From NCBI RefSeq assembly GCF_003812745.1, contig NZ_CP033831.1, positions 4,650,001 through 4,714,000 on the forward strand: a stretch of DNA of 64,000 bases. Reading direction: 5' to 3'. The notes beneath the pieces are model-generated. The model saw only the letters and a list, made by a program, of their open reading frames with translations, searched no databases and was not told where the DNA came from. Source of the stretch: Serratia sp. FDAARGOS_506. GTDB lineage: Bacteria > Pseudomonadota > Gammaproteobacteria > Enterobacterales > Enterobacteriaceae. Of the stretch, positions 5,877 to 12,342 are shown one piece after another (position 1 is the stretch's first letter; every line of letters starts with the position of its first letter). The translations under genes were made by a program, and so were the position numbers.

Positions 5877-5927
5877 AAAAAACGCCTGATGGGGGAAAAT
5901 CCCCCGCAAAATCGACGGGGGAACCGC

Positions 5928-6821
5928 GTGCCGAGCCTGATTTATTCCTTTGCCCAACTGGAAGCCTTCACCGCCGTGGCCGAGCACGGCAGCCTGGCGA
6001 AAGCCGCGCTCAAGCTGGGCAAAGACCGCACGACGCTACGCGATTTGATTGATTTTCTCGAGGATGGCTTAGGCTATGCGCTGTTCCTGCGCGAGGGACG
6101 CAGCCTGCACCTGACGCCGGAAGGCGAACAGCTGCAGCGCCAGGCGCACCTGCTGATGCGCCAGGTGAAAGCGTTTGAGGCGTTTGCTAAAGACGTGCCG
6201 AAGAGCGCGGCGCAGGAAATCTCGCTGGTCTACGATCCTTTCACGCCACGCGCATTGCTGCAGGCGCTGATTGCCGCCATGGCCCAGCGCAACACGCGCC
6301 TGAGCCTGATTAACGCCTCGCGCGACGAAGCGGAAAGCCTGCTGGCAAGCGGCCAGGCCGATCTGGGCATCTGCCAGGCGCGCAACCGCAGCGTGGGCGA
6401 CACCATGGAGTGGCGCGCCTTAGGGGCGATAGAGATGGATTTTTACGCCGCCAAAACGCTTTTCCCCGGCGCGGAACAGCCGCTTTCGCTGCTGGAGCTC
6501 TCACTCACGCCGCAGGTAATCATGCACCCGGACTCTGACGAACCGGTGGCGCGCCGCCTGCAAATTTCAGGGCACACTATCTTCACCAACGAGCTGGAGA
6601 TGCTGCGCGCCCTGCTCGAACAGGGCTGCGGCTGGGGATTCCTGCCGACACATATGCATGCCGAACGGTGGAAAAACGTCAACACGCTGCGCACCGAAGT
6701 GGGCAGCCAGGGGATCAGCCAAACCATGGTGACCATCTGGAAACCGGGCAATGACCGGCGTGCGCTGATTGATGAGACGTTGGGGTTGTTGCCGGGGTTG
6801 TGGATGGGGGTTGGTGGGTGA
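5928..6821 (+). CDS. LysR-family transcriptional regulator
   Basis: About 297 residues. The N-terminal winged helix-turn-helix is clear (FTAVAEHGSLAKAALKLGKD), followed by the LysR substrate-binding domain with the late motif LLEQGCGWGFLPTHM. I prefer GTG 5928 because GGGGGA lies 7 bases upstream and the -10 box at 5871 leaves little room for the in-frame ATG at 5889. The 5889 start would add 13 residues. The gene is divergent from the serine hydrolase, its likely target. The inducer is unknown. Confidence 0.85.
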   Translation: MPSLIYSFAQLEAFTAVAEHGSLAKAALKLGKDRTTLRDLIDFLEDGLGYALFLREGRSLHLTPEGEQLQRQAHLLMRQVKAFEAFAKDVPKSAAQEISLVYDPFTPRALLQALIAAMAQRNTRLSLINASRDEAESLLASGQADLGICQARNRSVGDTMEWRALGAIEMDFYAAKTLFPGAEQPLSLLELSLTPQVIMHPDSDEPVARRLQISGHTIFTNELEMLRALLEQGCGWGFLPTHMHAERWKNVNTLRTEVGSQGISQTMVTIWKPGNDRRALIDETLGLLPGLWMGVGG

Positions 6822-7148
6822 AACGTCGCTGTAGATTAGCGGTGTTGTTACTGGTAGTGGATCGCAGCGTTCATCGTCCGCGTTGCTTATTCGATCGTTC
6901 TTTGGCGGGGATTGCTGTTTTCTACTAATGGAGCCCCTCTCCACCTTCGCCCCACCGCTGCTGGCGCTGGCTTATTGCTTTGAATGGTGGCATTTGAGGG
7001 GCGGCTTTGAGCGAGGAGCAGACGTTCGTACTTGAGTCGCCATAGATCCTGCTCACAATGTCGTGTATCAATCAACTAGGAACAGGTCAAACTATATCAA
7101 AACTGTCAGTGATACAGTGGCATGCGAATATTTCAGAGGCTTATCAGT
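6822..7148. other. 327-base non-coding stretch with one copy of a 95-base repeat
   Basis: No gene is visible. The right part carries one member of an imperfect repeat (6996-7090). This is the left border of an AT-richer segment that extends to about 11.3 kb. Confidence 0.5.
6996..7090 (+). repeat. 95-base imperfect direct repeat, copy 1
   Basis: From GAGGGGCGGCTTTGAGCGAG to AGGAACAGGTCAA this stretch matches 7456-7550 without length change, with scattered substitutions. It contains the phrase GACGTTCGTACTTGAGTCGC. The pair brackets the small gene at 7149-7370. Confidence 0.75.
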
Positions 7149-7370
7149 ATGAAGATTGTTTTTATCCCTGCGTTGATCATAGTCCTGATTGATAAAGAAC
7201 AGGACATGGGACGGGAATTGACCCGCGATGAGGTTGAGTCCATCCGCGATGACGCTACAGCCATCCGCCTGCCGGCCGAAGCAGCCGAGGATATAATCAG
7301 AGAGCGTGGCTACCGCGATATTGATCCTGAGAATGTCTGGCGCGAGTGGCAGGCGTATAAAGCTGACTGA
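7149..7370 (+). CDS. Small protein of unknown function
   Basis: A 73-residue protein. The first ~13 residues are hydrophobic (KIVFIPALIIVLI). The rest is acidic and helical, with the segment DEVESIRDDATAIRLPAEAA and a C-terminus rich in Trp and Tyr (VWREWQAYKAD). I chose ATG 7149, with AGAGG upstream; the frame also opens at 7122. I do not recognise the family. Reading-frame quality (many GAT/GAG codons, no stops) supports a real gene. It sits between two copies of a 95-base repeat at the edge of the accessory segment. Confidence 0.55.
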   Translation: MKIVFIPALIIVLIDKEQDMGRELTRDEVESIRDDATAIRLPAEAAEDIIRERGYRDIDPENVWREWQAYKAD

Positions 7371-7455
7371 ATGTCGATGGGAACACGCTGCTTTAGTGGC
7401 ACATGAAAATTGTGCACTTACACGGATGCGTTTACTCCGCGCCTGGCGTGGAGCT

Positions 7456-7550
7456 GAGGGGCAACTTTGAACGAGGAGCGGACGTTCGTAATTGAATCGC
7501 CATAAATGTTGCTAGCAAAGCCGTGTGCCAATCAACTGGGAGCGGGTCAA
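7456..7550 (+). repeat. 95-base imperfect direct repeat, copy 2
   Basis: Counterpart of 6996-7090, from GAGGGGCAACTTTGAACGAG to TGGGAGCGGGTCAA. It lies about 110 bases before the nuclease gene at 7664. The two copies are 460 bases apart. Confidence 0.75.
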
Positions 7551-7663
7551 CGGAAAAATCATGACTAAGGATTGAAAGACTTGTCGAACGAGTGAAATAA
7601 TGGCCATCTGGGTAAGGGCGATGCCCACATAAACACTTTTAAGGCTACAAGGCGAGATCCTTA

Positions 7664-8860
7664 ATGAGCATCGAGAATGTATCAAGATTAAAACGAAATC
7701 GCGGAGTTCCTGTAGCGATCCGACGTAAATTGCTTGAGAAATACGATCATGCTTGCGCTGCCTGTGGTGTTAAAGATGACGTGGTTCCACTTGAGCTTGC
7801 TCATCTTGTTCCCACCTATGCAGGTGGTGAATCATCTGAAGACAATTTGACAATTCTTTGCCCAAATTGTCACCGAACATTTGATCGCCAGCCACGTGAA
7901 TATGAATTTGTCAGTTTTCTCACTGAGCTATTGAAAAATCATCCTAACTTCAGTGACATACAACAGGATATACTGTTAGGCCGCGAAATTCGTTATAGGG
8001 CTGATCTTCTAGTAAACCGACGGTTAAATGATACAAAGGAAGTTTTGCTAATCGAGTGCAAGACCTATTTAGCACTAACTTCCGGCCATATTCATAATGT
8101 CATTGGACAATTGGAAAAATACAAATCCAGTTACGGTAATGGCAGGATGGTCCTCGCTATTCCAGCAACCTTGAGAGCAACTGACTTGTCGGCTCTGAAT
8201 GCGGCGGACATTGAAGCGTGGGATATTAAATACATTGCAAACAATTTTTCTAAACAAATAGAGGCTGCATCTCCAAGCTATTATAGGGCATTATTTCTTG
8301 CACGGATCACGCGTCCAACAAAAAAGATTACTCGCGAGCAAGAGTTAATTAATTCTTTATCTTCCTGTATTCCAGGGAAGAACGACTGCTATGTGTATCA
8401 GAACCTCGTTGGAGATATTCTTGAACATTTGTTCACGCCCCCTCTTGGGAAGCCAATTCCAGAGCTATCTGACAAGTTGAAAGCCAATCGCCGCGACTTC
8501 ATCATGCCAAACTATACTGATAAGGGATTCTGGTCTTTCTTGCGACAAAAGTATGAAGCTGATTACATTGTGATTGATGCAAAAAACTACTCAAGAAAAG
8601 TCAAAAAGTCTGAGATCTTGCAAATCGCGAACTACTTGAAACCACATGGAGCTGGTCTCTTTGGGTTAATCATATCTCGCAAGGGTGGCGACGCATTAGG
8701 TTGTGAACATACGTTGAGAGAACAATGGCTAGTTCATAAAAAAATGATCTTGGTGCTGGATGACGAAGATGTTAAAGCGATGCTAGTTGCCAAGTCAGAT
8801 GGTCGCCAGCCTGAAGAAATATTGGGGCAGAAAATTGAAGACTTCAGGCTATCAATGTAG
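7664..8860 (+). CDS. HNH endonuclease with two PD-(D/E)xK-like nuclease motifs
   Basis: A 398-residue protein of unusual make-up. Residues 28-75 are a zinc-type HNH domain: Cys31/Cys34 and Cys66/Cys69 would bind zinc, with His47 (ELAHLVP), Asn61 and His70 as HNH residues. A restriction-like core follows, with Asp114 (YRADLL), Glu131-Cys-Lys133 (LIECKTY) and Gln149. A second comes later, with Asp278 (RRDFI), Asp305-Ala-Lys307 (VIDAKNY) and Gln320. Each core has the D...(D/E)xK...Q order of that superfamily. The gene is AT-rich with rare codons, unlike the flanking genes, so it was probably acquired by transfer. It converges on a three-gene operon that also encodes an HNH protein. A defence or restriction role is likely but not shown. 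Confidence 0.75.
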   Translation: MSIENVSRLKRNRGVPVAIRRKLLEKYDHACAACGVKDDVVPLELAHLVPTYAGGESSEDNLTILCPNCHRTFDRQPREYEFVSFLTELLKNHPNFSDIQQDILLGREIRYRADLLVNRRLNDTKEVLLIECKTYLALTSGHIHNVIGQLEKYKSSYGNGRMVLAIPATLRATDLSALNAADIEAWDIKYIANNFSKQIEAASPSYYRALFLARITRPTKKITREQELINSLSSCIPGKNDCYVYQNLVGDILEHLFTPPLGKPIPELSDKLKANRRDFIMPNYTDKGFWSFLRQKYEADYIVIDAKNYSRKVKKSEILQIANYLKPHGAGLFGLIISRKGGDALGCEHTLREQWLVHKKMILVLDDEDVKAMLVAKSDGRQPEEILGQKIEDFRLSM

Positions 8861-8971
8861 CAGTAAACCGGAATTACGCGAAAAGACGTGCAGGTTCGGT
8901 AACTGCTAGGTAGTATTTTCCAACGCACAGGATGGTGAGTGTATTTTATCTATATAGATGATCTAGCTCGT

Positions 8972-9041
8972 AATGTCCGCAGTTGGCACGGAGCGGATTT
9001 GTGAGGAGACTTAGATCCACCTTGAGCGAGATGCGGACATT
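8972..9041. repeat. Inverted repeat between the convergent nuclease genes
   Basis: AATGTCCGC (8972-8980) pairs with GCGGACATT (9033-9041) across 52 bases. It lies between two convergent genes and resembles a short intergenic element; a degenerate relative (CTTCTGGCACAAAGCAG) may sit near 11090. No T tract marks it as a terminator. The rest of 8861-9152 shows nothing further. Confidence 0.4.
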
Positions 9042-9152
9042 AATATATGTTAATATGGAAAAATTTAGCTTTGCACAGATGAACCTTTGTGGTCGAAATG
9101 CTAAGTTACAGATGACACCATCTGAACCCAAAGACATAATGCGAATTATTTT

Positions 9153-9479
9153 CTAACGCCCTTGTGAAGCTAAAAGTGCAAGAGATACACATTTTTGTTT
9201 CTTCACAAACTGTGTTTCTTCAGCTTCGATTGGCAGCATATATAAAATATCTAACGGTAATTCGGCGCCAGCATATTTCATTTCACCTTTAAGTTTATGC
9301 AAAGCATCACCTGATGGTCCAATAATCAATATATCGTAATCACAACCTATCCCTAAAAGGGACGAACCAAACATAAAACTCTCATACAAAGCTAATGTCT
9401 TGCAATTATTTAACAGATGTTTTGCAACTTCACTCGCGGTCATTATTTTTGAGTGATCAACGCTTTTAACTCCGGCCAT
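9153..9479 (-). CDS. Minimal nucleotidyltransferase (MNT-type)
   Basis: A 108-residue protein with the nucleotidyltransferase signature: FMFGSS (Gly38, Ser39), then Asp47-Tyr-Asp49 (CDYDILII) and a third acidic residue Asp77 (LPLDILYM). These are the three carboxylates that bind metal in the pol-beta-like fold. The size matches minimal nucleotidyltransferases such as MNT partners of HEPN toxins; it is too short for a CD-NTase. The ATG at 9479 has GAGG upstream and overlaps the previous gene by 37 bases. An internal ATG at 9443 shares one base with that gene's TAA (TAATG), so a 96-residue product is also possible. Substrate unknown. Confidence 0.7.
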   Translation of the reverse strand: MAGVKSVDHSKIMTASEVAKHLLNNCKTLALYESFMFGSSLLGIGCDYDILIIGPSGDALHKLKGEMKYAGAELPLDILYMLPIEAEETQFVKKQKCVSLALLASQGR

Positions 9480-10087
9480 TTCATTACCTCACAACCAAGT
9501 TCACTACCTGCCTCATAGGCATTTCGAGCAGGACTTCCATTGGGATTTATATTCCACAAAATATCAACAGGGCCAAATATTCCCCAAAAAGTGCGCACAG
9601 AATCTGCAGTCGGTTCGTATTCAGTTAACATACCTACTCTTAACTTTCGATTATTTGCTAAAGTAATAATAAAAACACGATCAAACTGTCTCTCTACTTC
9701 CTTTACTACCCTCATCTGCGTTATGAGCCGATACGAGAAAAAGTAGTCTTTATGGGAGGCAGTATTGAGAGTGTCATTAGACAGTGCGCTGTAAAAGGTT
9801 CCAGCGTTACCCCATCCTATTTTAGCTGATGTAAGATAGCTAATGGCCTCTCCAGTCCATACACACTCTTTTCTATACCCACATATAAAATCTACATCCG
9901 GGAAATCATGATGATATCTCTGAGCAATCTCCAGGCTAATTTCTTCTGATGCTGAAATTACCGCTAATACATCAGGCCTATCGCGAATAGATATTCTAAT
10001 AGCATCTCCATTCACATGCACTGCAGACCCTGATTCTTTTAGATCATCATTAATATATTCAATCGCATAATTTACTTGCCAACTCAT
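9443..10087 (-). CDS. Protein of unknown function in the HNH-nucleotidyltransferase operon
   Basis: A 214-residue, probably cytosolic protein with no signal peptide or membrane segment. I do not recognise a domain. Segments that look conserved are PDVDFICGYRKECVWTGEAI (about residues 63-82), IGWGNAGTFYSAL, and a C-terminal part with VDILWNINPNGSPARNAYEA. The gene starts inside the stop of the HNH gene (ATGA, 4-base overlap) and overlaps the nucleotidyltransferase start, so the three are almost certainly co-translated. It is AT-rich like its neighbours. It could be the effector, target or regulator of the trio; nothing in the sequence decides this. Confidence 0.7.
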   Translation of the reverse strand: MSWQVNYAIEYINDDLKESGSAVHVNGDAIRISIRDRPDVLAVISASEEISLEIAQRYHHDFPDVDFICGYRKECVWTGEAISYLTSAKIGWGNAGTFYSALSNDTLNTASHKDYFFSYRLITQMRVVKEVERQFDRVFIITLANNRKLRVGMLTEYEPTADSVRTFWGIFGPVDILWNINPNGSPARNAYEAGSELGCEVMKWPELKALITQK

Positions 10088-10779
10088 GCTAATATTCCAT
10101 CCATTTCTCTTGGAAACCTTATGGCTTTACCGGAAACGCCACAGACATGACGTTCTGTAAGCCCACGAACGTGCTCAAGGTACTGCGCAAAAATACCTCT
10201 CTCATCAGGTGTCATATGACATCTGTTCAGGCCTAAAATAGCTTGAATTCGATAATGATTAGGTAAAATGACACTACGTATTCTTAGAGACCATAATTCC
10301 GCCGTTTCAGATTCAGGATCATAGGTAAAACGCTCTCCTTCACCAGGCGCAAATTTTGCCCAAAGAGCTTTATTTTCATCCATAGCGGCTAAAACAGCCT
10401 CTCTTGCTTGCTCTCTGTTTTCATAGCGAATAATGCCTTGCCGATTGGCCAAAGCAACAAGGTGGTTTGTCTTCCAGTCTAGAAGGAGGCTTCTGGGATA
10501 AGCCTCAGGAGCCTTGTCGATGAGAGTGTGGCAATTAGGGCATAGTAAAAGAAGGTTTTCAAAAGAGTCTGCTTCAAATACCTCTTCAGGTCTCTCCTCA
10601 TGCCTTGGCCCCTTATTACCATGGGGAATGACATGTGCCATTTCCCCGATATGCTTATAACCGCCCATCTCTTGAGGAAACAGTGGCTTATGACAATCAG
10701 GATGCTGACAATGCCCTGCTGATGCAGAAAACAATTGTAATTTGATTTCATTTGGGATGCTTTTACGGGGTGCCATCAT
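10084..10779 (-). CDS. HNH endonuclease, first gene of a three-gene accessory operon
   Basis: A 231-residue protein. The HNH domain spans about residues 20-90: zinc ligands Cys24 and Cys29 (HCQHPDCH) and Cys80 and Cys83 (CPNCH), with His49 (EMAHVIP), Asn75 and His84 as nuclease residues. The C-terminal ~130 residues, including ALWAKFAPGEGERF, form a helical domain of unknown role. A strong ribosome binding site (AGGGAAGAG) precedes a double ATG; either Met may be used. The gene is AT-rich. It leads an operon with an unknown protein and a minimal nucleotidyltransferase. Confidence 0.8.
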   Translation of the reverse strand: MMAPRKSIPNEIKLQLFSASAGHCQHPDCHKPLFPQEMGGYKHIGEMAHVIPHGNKGPRHEERPEEVFEADSFENLLLLCPNCHTLIDKAPEAYPRSLLLDWKTNHLVALANRQGIIRYENREQAREAVLAAMDENKALWAKFAPGEGERFTYDPESETAELWSLRIRSVILPNHYRIQAILGLNRCHMTPDERGIFAQYLEHVRGLTERHVCGVSGKAIRFPREMDGILA

Positions 10780-11337
10780 CTCTTCCCTAAATCTTTAGAA
10801 GTAAGCTAAAAATTTTTCACCTTAGCAGCTTGACCACTGGTTAAAGAAAACGACTTATCAGAAGTATACATTTGACCTATCCATGAGTTGAACACAGCCC
10901 AAGAAGCTAACCGATACACTTTTCTTAAAACAATGGCATTTAAATTAACTCTCCAACATTTCATAGTTAAAGCATAACAAGATTTACAATTTCATTATCT
11001 TGAACTAACACAAGGTTTCAATAAATGTTTATTTTTATCTGGGTGACCTGCTCCCGTAAACTAACATAACATGATGCAAGCAACTTCCGCTTCTGGCACA
11101 AAGCAGCCATTGATACCTAACTTCAACAATGAAACACACCTTACCAACCTCTCCTCAAAAAAACACAACCACACAAAATGATTTGACTCACAATTAATAA
11201 ATCAACGACATTATTACCTCTATATTCATTCCATTATTTTACCTCCCCCAGCTCCAGCCCCCCAACTCCCCCCTAGCACCGCCCCCGCCCTTTCCCTACA
11301 ATAAGGGATCTGTTGAGGCATAACGCAAGGAAAGACG
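10780..11337. other. 558-base AT-rich gap at the right edge of the accessory segment
   Basis: No gene is visible on either strand. The left end must hold the promoter of the HNH operon and the right end that of the LacI-type regulator. Around 11085-11105 there is a degenerate copy of a CCGCTTCTGGCACAAAGC-type intergenic element. The last ~120 bases change abruptly to C-rich sequence (11235-11300), marking the return to core composition. Confidence 0.5.
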
Positions 11338-12342
11338 GTGTCGAAAGCCAATCCCAATGCCACTATCGTGGATATCGCCCGCCGCGCCAGGGTGACCAAT
11401 ATCACCGTTTCCCGCGCCTTCAATAAGCCCGAGCTGGTCAAGCCGGAAACCCGCGAGCGCATTCACGCCATCGCCAAAGAGCTGAACTATGTGCCCAACG
11501 CCTTCGCGCAGGGGCTGAAAAGCAGCAGCAGCCAGATTATCGGCATCGTCACCAGCAGCATGTACAACCCGTTCTATTCCGGCCTGATCAAGACCGTGTC
11601 GCGCATTGCGCGCCAGCAGGGCTACCAGATCATGCTGTTCGACACCGACGGCAGCGAAGAGGCGGAAATGCGCGCCATTCAGGCGCTGTTCGGCTACAAG
11701 GCGCGCGGCATTCTGCTGTCGGCGGTGCGCGACGACAAGCGCTACCGCCCCGCCTATCTCGAGCTGGCCGAGGTGTACGGCGTGCCGCTGATCCTGATCG
11801 ACCGTGACCTTTACGATCAGCAGCTGAGCGGCGTGTTCCTCGATAACCGCGAGATCGGCGTGCTGGCCGGCCGTTATCTGGCGGAGCAGCCGGAGCAGAA
11901 GCTTTTGATTATCGGCGGCCCGGCGGATTCGGAAATTACGCTAACGCGCACCGCCGGCATCGTCGCGGCGCTGCAGGGCAGCGGGCGTGAGATTCACATC
12001 ATCAACGGCGACTACGATTTCACCTCGCAAGAGAGCGAGGTGCGCACCTATCTGGCGCAGCCGGAGAACCGCCCGGATTACATCATCGGCCTGAATGGCA
12101 TCATTACGCTGGGCGCCATCGCCATCTGCCACGAGATGGGGCTCTATCAGCAGGTGAAGTTCTTCTCGATAGACGAACCGCCGCGCGCCGGCGCTTACGG
12201 CCTGCACATTCCGGGGGTGTATCACGATACGCAGAAACTGGGGGAGATCGCCGCGGAGCTGCTGTTCAGCGCCATTAACAGCCCGCGCGGCGAGTTGCCG
12301 GTGCGCAGAGAGTTCTTCACCGGCTCGCTGTTGAATCGCTGA
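11338..12342 (+). CDS. LacI-family regulator of the adjacent pentitol operon
   Basis: A 334-residue protein starting with GTG; AAGGAAA lies 7 bases upstream. The N-terminal LacI headpiece is clear (TIVDIARRARVTNITVSRAF, then the hinge ending LNYVPNAFAQGLKS). The rest is the periplasmic-binding-protein-like effector domain, with IIGIVTSSMYNPFYSGLI at its start. The gene ends 6 bases from the convergent end of the seven-gene sugar operon and is its obvious regulator. Two copies of TGACAACGT upstream of that operon are candidate operators. The effector is probably the pentitol, pentulose or a phosphorylated intermediate. Confidence 0.9.
   Translation: MSKANPNATIVDIARRARVTNITVSRAFNKPELVKPETRERIHAIAKELNYVPNAFAQGLKSSSSQIIGIVTSSMYNPFYSGLIKTVSRIARQQGYQIMLFDTDGSEEAEMRAIQALFGYKARGILLSAVRDDKRYRPAYLELAEVYGVPLILIDRDLYDQQLSGVFLDNREIGVLAGRYLAEQPEQKLLIIGGPADSEITLTRTAGIVAALQGSGREIHIINGDYDFTSQESEVRTYLAQPENRPDYIIGLNGIITLGAIAICHEMGLYQQVKFFSIDEPPRAGAYGLHIPGVYHDTQKLGEIAAELLFSAINSPRGELPVRREFFTGSLLNR

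Follow-up and report, generated by a model that had tools for sequence, protein, structure and literature searches.

Three overlapping genes at positions 9153–10779 of the window, by which we mean the whole 64,000-nucleotide stretch of Serratia sp. FDAARGOS_506 DNA analysed here, encode an HNH protein, a middle protein and a mini-nucleotidyltransferase. They form a conserved unit of coupled genes whose domains can be assigned; the middle protein carries an internal duplication, and the unit is found in mobile and defence-rich settings. We infer a defence function for the trio, and assign a probability of about 0.55 to the reading that it is a mobile module against phages (or plasmids), so far undescribed, whose three parts are translated together: an HNH effector, a pseudo-nuclease and a nucleotide-handling subunit.

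Organisation of the locus

The window genome comprises 4.86 Mb in two contigs. The trio lies on the minus strand of an AT-rich insert between a LysR-type gene (5889–6821) and a LacI-type gene (11338–12342), and the G+C content is about 40% in the trio stretch compared with about 60% in the surrounding region. Coordinates and base composition agree with the original prediction of three AT-rich minus-strand reading frames at this place, listed as 231, 214 and 108 residues. The features are as follows.

10084–10779, minus strand: gene 1, HNH nuclease, 231 residues; open reading frame and Pfam HNH_2 match, kept in all trio loci read
10441–10767, minus strand: Cap5-type HNH domain of gene 1, residues 5–113; from PDB profile matches and PADLOC CBASS effector models
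10087–10446, minus strand: C-terminal domain of gene 1, residues 112–231; without Pfam match, marks the HNH proteins of the trio system
9443–10087, minus strand: gene 2, middle protein, 214 residues; without family in Pfam, PADLOC, NCBIfam or PHROGs
9767–10087, minus strand: N-terminal repeat half of the middle protein; internal duplication, motif W77-G79-A81-I82 ... G93 ... G96, missing in the short forms
9446–9766, minus strand: C-terminal repeat half of the middle protein; internal duplication, the part common to the short forms
9617–9619, minus strand: codon of Tyr157 of the middle protein; sole invariant residue in 22 of 22 middle proteins
9153–9443, minus strand: gene 3, mini-nucleotidyltransferase, 96 residues from the conserved start (108 residues, to 9479, from an upstream ATG)
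9333–9368, minus strand: GSX7DXD nucleotidyltransferase motif, residues 38–49 of the 108-residue reading frame
7465–11108, no strand assigned: 3,644-bp block with the trio and a second HNH gene; 99.4% identity to E. coli strain I4
7664–8860, plus strand: second HNH gene, 398 residues; HSDR_N_2/Mrr_cat-like and PDC-M36A-like parts

The predicted 4-base overlap of genes 1 and 2 is confirmed and is kept, as ATGA, in all 11 loci of the window clade; across the 14 loci tabulated it occurs in 12, the other two having a 1-base gap. At the end of gene 2, a 37-base overlap and a TAATG junction had both been described. Both are present in the DNA, but they are two alternative starts of gene 3. A stop–start junction of the form TRATG (TAATG or TGATG) joins genes 2 and 3 in 11 of 11 window-clade loci, Met13 of the listed gene 3 reading frame is the same in all 10 aligned rows, and two of the 11 clade loci (L005 and L006) have GTG at the upstream start that would create the 37-base overlap. 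For these reasons, the more probable start of gene 3 is 9443, which gives 96 residues. An RNA component was considered and rejected, as no Rfam family reached its gathering score in window 6500–11600, and a scan for promoters and terminators gave no excess over shuffled sequences.

Conservation and distribution of the trio

Distant genomes carry these three genes again, in unchanged order, with identities down to 17–26%. The trio is a conserved operon, as had been proposed, and among the loci inspected its genes do not lie mostly apart. A search of 84,980 species genomes with the middle protein, which reaches close relatives only, gave six loci (Proteus, Rouxiella, Azoarcus, Halomonas, Neopusillimonas and Stutzerimonas), all six with the three genes in order. 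The 72,556 plasmid records gave 8 matches to the middle protein, 9 to the C-terminal domain of the HNH protein and 8 to the nucleotidyltransferase. The same 8 records hold all three genes (three from Ensifer, three from Rhizobium, and one each from Phaeobacter and Polymorphobacter) and represent about four lineages, the repeats within a genus being near-identical; the ninth, from Vibrio, holds a divergent trio as judged by annotation and alignment. Searches with middle-protein profiles gave 3 of 398 genomes in the phylum sample, 2 of 385 in the class of genome G151 and, in the window's class, 1 of 369, namely the window's own; the three samples may overlap. The five distinct genomes reached by profile search (G000, G240, G151, G595 and G1147, with the window's own counted) all carry trios. 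By this profile count of 3 in 398 genomes, the family is rare.

In a comparison with 60 relatives of the window genome, the trio was found in the window genome alone, and it is present in one of 5,426 E. coli genomes. Phage records gave no match; viral contigs yielded one prophage contig and one interrupted copy. In the latter (L021, 6875–8201), the middle gene is reduced to its last third beside a transposase-like reading frame of 326 residues, recognised by eye, and the nucleotidyltransferase frame is intact. The HNH proteins of G1200 and G1214 match over 200 residues, have another C-terminus and are not accompanied by a trio.

The conserved order, the overlaps and the co-inheritance of the genes suggest that the three proteins act in a complex or are needed in tight stoichiometry.

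The HNH protein

Gene 1 was said to contain complete HNH motifs and does so: Pfam HNH_2 matches with 33.4 bits against a cut-off of 21. In a profile search, residues ~5–115 matched six PDB chains of Cap5-like or HNH proteins (9om4, 8ysq, 8fm1, 7rwm, 9dif and 7rwk) with E-values from 3e-18 to 9e-10, and the same part is matched by PADLOC models of CBASS effectors. The matches from both sources end near residue 115–123, apart from one SduA model that reaches residue 141. Judged by sequence, the HNH domain is nearest to the Cap5 effectors of CBASS.

Alignment of 13 HNH proteins reveals 19 invariant residues, among them C24, C29, H49, N75, C80 and H84. Gene 1 has the full complement of an active HNH nuclease, consisting of the catalytic set H49, N75 and H84 and the zinc ligands C24, C29 and C80. 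A further cysteine, C83, is invariant in the nine rows of a smaller alignment, not in all 13. The last 120 residues have no match in Pfam, and the structure of gene 1 predicted from its single sequence has a pLDDT of 34. We infer that the HNH protein is the effector, because no other part of the trio has a clear catalytic domain whose active site is complete throughout.

The middle protein

Searches of Pfam, PADLOC, NCBIfam and PHROGs with the middle protein gave nothing at E ≤ 1. A Pfam scan of 11 middle proteins returned five families with one member each, at a best E-value of 0.095. Against the sequences of the PDB, a profile of the whole protein gave no match at E ≤ 10 and a profile of the stacked halves gave low-quality matches only.

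The two halves align with one another with an hhalign score of 40.6, compared with 25.3 or less in 200 column shuffles and 9.7 on reversal, and the order helix, three strands, helix, strand is repeated in the predicted structure. This AlphaFold2 model was made from seven sequences; the best model has a pLDDT of 83.7 and a pTM of 0.56, and the other four have mean pLDDT values of 65.7–71.7. Foldseek returned no match to it at E ≤ 0.001. The best rows by E-value are retroviral integrases and a metallo-β-lactamase with probabilities of at most 0.28, and the rows of high probability are NucS (2vld_A, 0.99 with E 0.024; chain B, 0.30), EndoMS (0.72) and RPB5 (up to 0.84). Against viral models, Rpb5-like proteins were matched with probabilities up to 1.00 and Mrr-domain proteins with 0.80 and 0.47. 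RPB5 and NucS are proteins that we take to contain a restriction-endonuclease-like fold, and it is this fold that the model of the middle protein resembles, through weak matches. As to the (D/E)xK signature, no conserved lysine follows the third strand of either half. Taken on its alignment and predicted structure, the middle protein is duplicated and has lost the catalytic signature. A relationship of its C-terminal half to the C-terminal domain of gene 1 was considered and rejected, as the hhalign score of 23.8 does not reach the 25.3 of the best shuffle.

Tyr157 alone is invariant in the 22 middle proteins compared, and Asp175 is kept in 20 of them. By analogy with HepT, the invariant tyrosine suggests a target of nucleotidylation; a structural role is equally compatible.

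The predicted fold would also suit a non-suicidal form of restriction, in which the middle pseudo-nuclease recognises modified or foreign DNA, the HNH protein cuts it and the nucleotidyltransferase serves as an NTP-dependent switch. HNH domains occur in restriction enzymes, and no methylase would be needed if the target were modified DNA. Nevertheless, Pfam finds no modification-reading domain in the trio and the closest relatives of its HNH protein are CBASS effectors of the abortive type, and we regard restriction of this kind as distinctly unlikely.

Short forms of the middle protein

A profile of the C-terminal domain of the HNH protein found 5 of the 398 genomes, these being the three already known together with G280 and G436, in which the product of the gene between the HNH and nucleotidyltransferase genes is only 136 or 139 residues long. 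Both products match the C-terminal half of the middle protein, with 25.5 and 14.8 bits, versus 9.1 bits for the best of 2,000 shuffled decoys; with a profile of the N-terminal half they do not rise above the decoys. A combined profile of both halves gave 14.6 bits for the middle protein of G436, with one shuffled decoy close at 13.9 bits; separation is better with the profile of the C-terminal half.

The HNH protein of G280 has matches in 19 of 148 genomes of the order. Six of these were read: G280 and G1187 have short trios, G1147 and the window genome long ones, and G1200 and G1214 none. In the other 13 the match is confined to the HNH domain. The C-terminal domain of the G280 protein matches seven plasmid records, and in the three new records that were read, from Acinetobacter, Novosphingobium and Klebsiella michiganensis, a short middle gene is followed by a GSX8-9DXD frame that is annotated as a nucleotidyltransferase in none of the three; the frame of the Acinetobacter plasmid stops after about 70 residues.

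The mini-nucleotidyltransferase

The match of gene 3 to Pfam NTP_transf_2 has 15.8 bits, under the cut-off of 21; a family profile recovers the minimal nucleotidyltransferases 2rff (E 0.0027) and 1ylq (E 0.0097). The signature GS...DxD...D read from the window sequence holds in part. Its GS and DxD elements are invariant in 10 of 10 relatives and the window protein has the third Asp, but this residue is not conserved in the family: the third metal-binding carboxylate (D71 of MntA) is Asp in 6 of 10, the window included, and His in 4 of 10. The loop from GS to DXD has 7 residues in the window clade and 8–9 in divergent copies.

PMC7641770 and PMC11586414 give the antitoxins of HEPN/MNT systems a GSX10DXD motif, mutation of which abolishes the transfer of AMP to tyrosine. 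PMC7641770 also describes minimal nucleotidyltransferases as antitoxins of HEPN toxins and provides, in MntA, a precedent for the transfer of NMP to tyrosine. The analogy to HEPN antitoxins drawn in the original prediction is weaker than it appeared, the motif being GSX7DXD in the window (7–9 residues in the family) instead of GSX10DXD and the third carboxylate being replaced by His in 4 of 10 proteins. For these two reasons, some members of the family are of doubtful transferase activity.

These comparisons bear on the possibility that the trio is a toxin–antitoxin or addiction module that stabilises mobile DNA, its HNH toxin being neutralised by the nucleotidyltransferase and the middle protein with no phage-specific trigger. 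Small overlapping genes on plasmids, in a prophage and in integrative elements (see below) are consistent with such a module, and minimal nucleotidyltransferases are antitoxins elsewhere. However, neither the GSX10DXD motif nor the HEPN partner of HEPN/MNT was found in the trio, the effector gene comes first, no DNA-binding antitoxin is recognised by Pfam, and relatives carry defence-type genes at the same site. We consider an addiction module unlikely, although it is the most credible of the rival explanations.

Mobility and genomic surroundings

Positions 7465–11108 of the window differ from the chromosome of E. coli strain I4 at 21 of 3,644 positions, an identity of 99.4%. At the level of sequence, this is a recent transfer of the trio-bearing block. 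The second HNH gene (7664–8860) reached E. coli I4 together with the trio; as a candidate fourth component it was rejected, the six species-genome loci giving only short HNH-level matches to it.

The block ends near short repeats. Related repeats of ~95 bp stand at the borders of the insert (6995–7090, 7455–7550 and about 11040–11108), with a partial copy at 9022–9041, and between two of them is an 82-residue reading frame (7122–7370, plus strand) with no family and a weak PADLOC match of 16 bits. The repeats were rejected as a part of the system, since related repeats are found on many enterobacterial plasmids beside unrelated genes (four regions read).

Plasmids, a prophage and integrative elements are all among the locations of the trio. 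In Proteus it lies between integrase-like and tail genes, identified by eye, on a contig that is also in the viral collection, and we assign this copy by eye to a prophage. In Azoarcus and G240 the trio comes directly after an integrase. At L046 and L003 a tyrosine integrase immediately precedes it, in the vicinity of guaB/guaA-like genes (names given by eye), and it is followed by the same kind of gene, of ~256–350 residues and without Pfam match.

The LacI gene is present in 14 of 30 genomes of the genus, the window's own included, and the site was fetched in 5 of the other 13. LysR and LacI genes flank it in all five relatives, and the contents between them differ: DarT1 with a NADAR antitoxin in one, SIR2-HerA in two, a NACHT protein (27.0 bits at a cut-off of 26.7; no PADLOC match) in another, and an Mrr_cat protein with an unknown partner in the last. 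Because all five hold defence-type genes at this position, the LysR–LacI site (window 6821–11338) is a variable defence-type hotspot in the genus. Plasmid-borne copies are close to Shedu (Phaeobacter), LmuA of Lamassu (Polymorphobacter), HamA and a partial HamB of Hachiman (Rhizobium) and a QatA-like NTPase (Ensifer), from a scan of nine neighbouring proteins picked by eye at five loci, with no control rate from random loci. The hotspot contents and the plasmid neighbours bear out the supposed defence surroundings of the trio.

Elsewhere, a short middle gene and an unannotated nucleotidyltransferase frame (L067, 4341–5100) lie just upstream of the antiviral reverse transcriptases Drt3a and Drt3b (DRT3), so named in the record annotation. 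In G595 (L048, 7000–8358) a TIR-domain gene, by its listed coordinates, shares 11 bases with the start of the HNH gene of a long, divergent trio, and the two are possibly a four-gene form. No recognised defence gene occurs in the stretches read of L003, L004, L005, L006, G151 and G280.

An operon for DNA repair or for maintenance of a mobile element, outside defence, would be in keeping with the integrases and transposases nearby and with the presence of the repair nuclease NucS/EndoMS (2vld, 5gke) among the closest fold matches. The patchy, transferable distribution of the trio and the defence-type genes at the same site and nearby make such an operon highly improbable.

Relation to known systems

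The likeness of the trio to CBASS Cap5 (HNH-SAVED) is in the HNH domain of gene 1. The C-terminal 120 residues of gene 1 match nothing in Pfam, no SAVED domain is found there, and no CD-NTase is present, genes 2 and 3 having no PADLOC match; membership of CBASS was rejected on these grounds. A messenger sensor of the SAVED or CARF type was also rejected, there being none among the best 50 Foldseek rows of either library. A CBASS-like signalling system in pieces can be imagined, in which the nucleotidyltransferase makes a messenger, the duplicated middle protein senses it instead of SAVED and the HNH protein is the effector. The Cap5-type domain and a nucleotidyltransferase in the same operon would agree with this, as would a sensor of two similar halves, which is how SAVED is built. 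CD-NTases, however, are a few hundred residues long compared with ~100 for gene 3, and with no CD-NTase found by PADLOC and no SAVED/CARF protein among those Foldseek rows, we think this arrangement very unlikely.

With HEPN/MNT (HepT/MntA, type VII toxin–antitoxin), the trio has in common a small Pol-β-type nucleotidyltransferase beside a nuclease. It differs in having an HNH instead of a HEPN partner, an extra gene between the two, a GSX7DXD motif and, often, His as the third carboxylate. Membership of HEPN/MNT was rejected, as Pfam gave no HEPN family for genes 1 and 2 at E ≤ 1 and the motif spacing is wrong. Proteins of the PD-(D/E)XK or Mrr-like kind and NucS, inactive versions from conflict systems included, have a helix–strand order like the one predicted for either half of the middle protein; by E-value, none of the Foldseek matches to NucS, EndoMS, RPB5 and Mrr-domain proteins is significant, and the middle protein differs from the group in lacking the conserved (D/E)xK lysine and in having Tyr157 as its one invariant residue. 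The PADLOC candidate PDC-M68A matches the HNH part, with up to 104 bits for the divergent L053 copy, but the match stops at about residue 125 of the 253-residue model, and PADLOC has no model that fits the window's genes 2 and 3.

The trio resembles parts of CBASS and of HEPN/MNT and, by the tests made, is a member of neither. The combination had not been recognised as a named defence system, and no description of it was found in PADLOC 2.0.0 or in the open-licence PMC literature. We file the trio under a known kind, multi-gene defence with a nuclease effector, and its middle-protein family as new, having no entry in the libraries used.

Proposed mechanism and implications

In a mobile defence module, the reading that we prefer, the HNH protein with its Cap5-type domain would be the effector that cuts DNA. 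The middle protein, with one or two nuclease-like domains without catalytic residues, would be a sensor or scaffold that binds DNA or a partner and keeps the HNH protein both in position and in check; a duplicated nuclease-like fold that lacks an active site, as modelled, would fit such a part. The mini-nucleotidyltransferase would bind NTP and nucleotidylate a partner, for which Tyr157 of the middle protein is the candidate acceptor, or it may instead be a nucleotide-sensing clamp; its features would fit either an enzyme or a nucleotide sensor. Infection would alter the state of nucleotides or DNA, the restraint would be lost and the HNH protein would degrade DNA. The complex, the direction of restraint, the trigger and the reaction at Tyr157 are the conjectural elements of this scheme.

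A more specific proposal, which we put forward tentatively and hold to be possible though rather doubtful, is that the trio represents a new class of immune system. The minimal nucleotidyltransferase would modify or read the invariant tyrosine of a pseudo-restriction-endonuclease and so license a Cap5-type HNH nuclease, control by nucleotidylation being exerted via a third, dead-nuclease protein. Were this true, the one- and two-domain middle proteins would be two generations of the same switch.

If the trio is a defence system, it would add to bacterial immunity a protein family without a database entry, and it would join the HNH effectors of cyclic-nucleotide immunity with minimal nucleotidyltransferases known as antitoxins, components that are usually separate. 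Through the invariant tyrosine, the idea of nucleotidylation as a switch of immunity can be tested directly, and for such a test nature supplies variants with one or two middle domains and with Asp or His in the nucleotidyltransferase. A nearly identical copy is already in an E. coli chromosome, so that simple tests may be made in the native genus of the usual phages.
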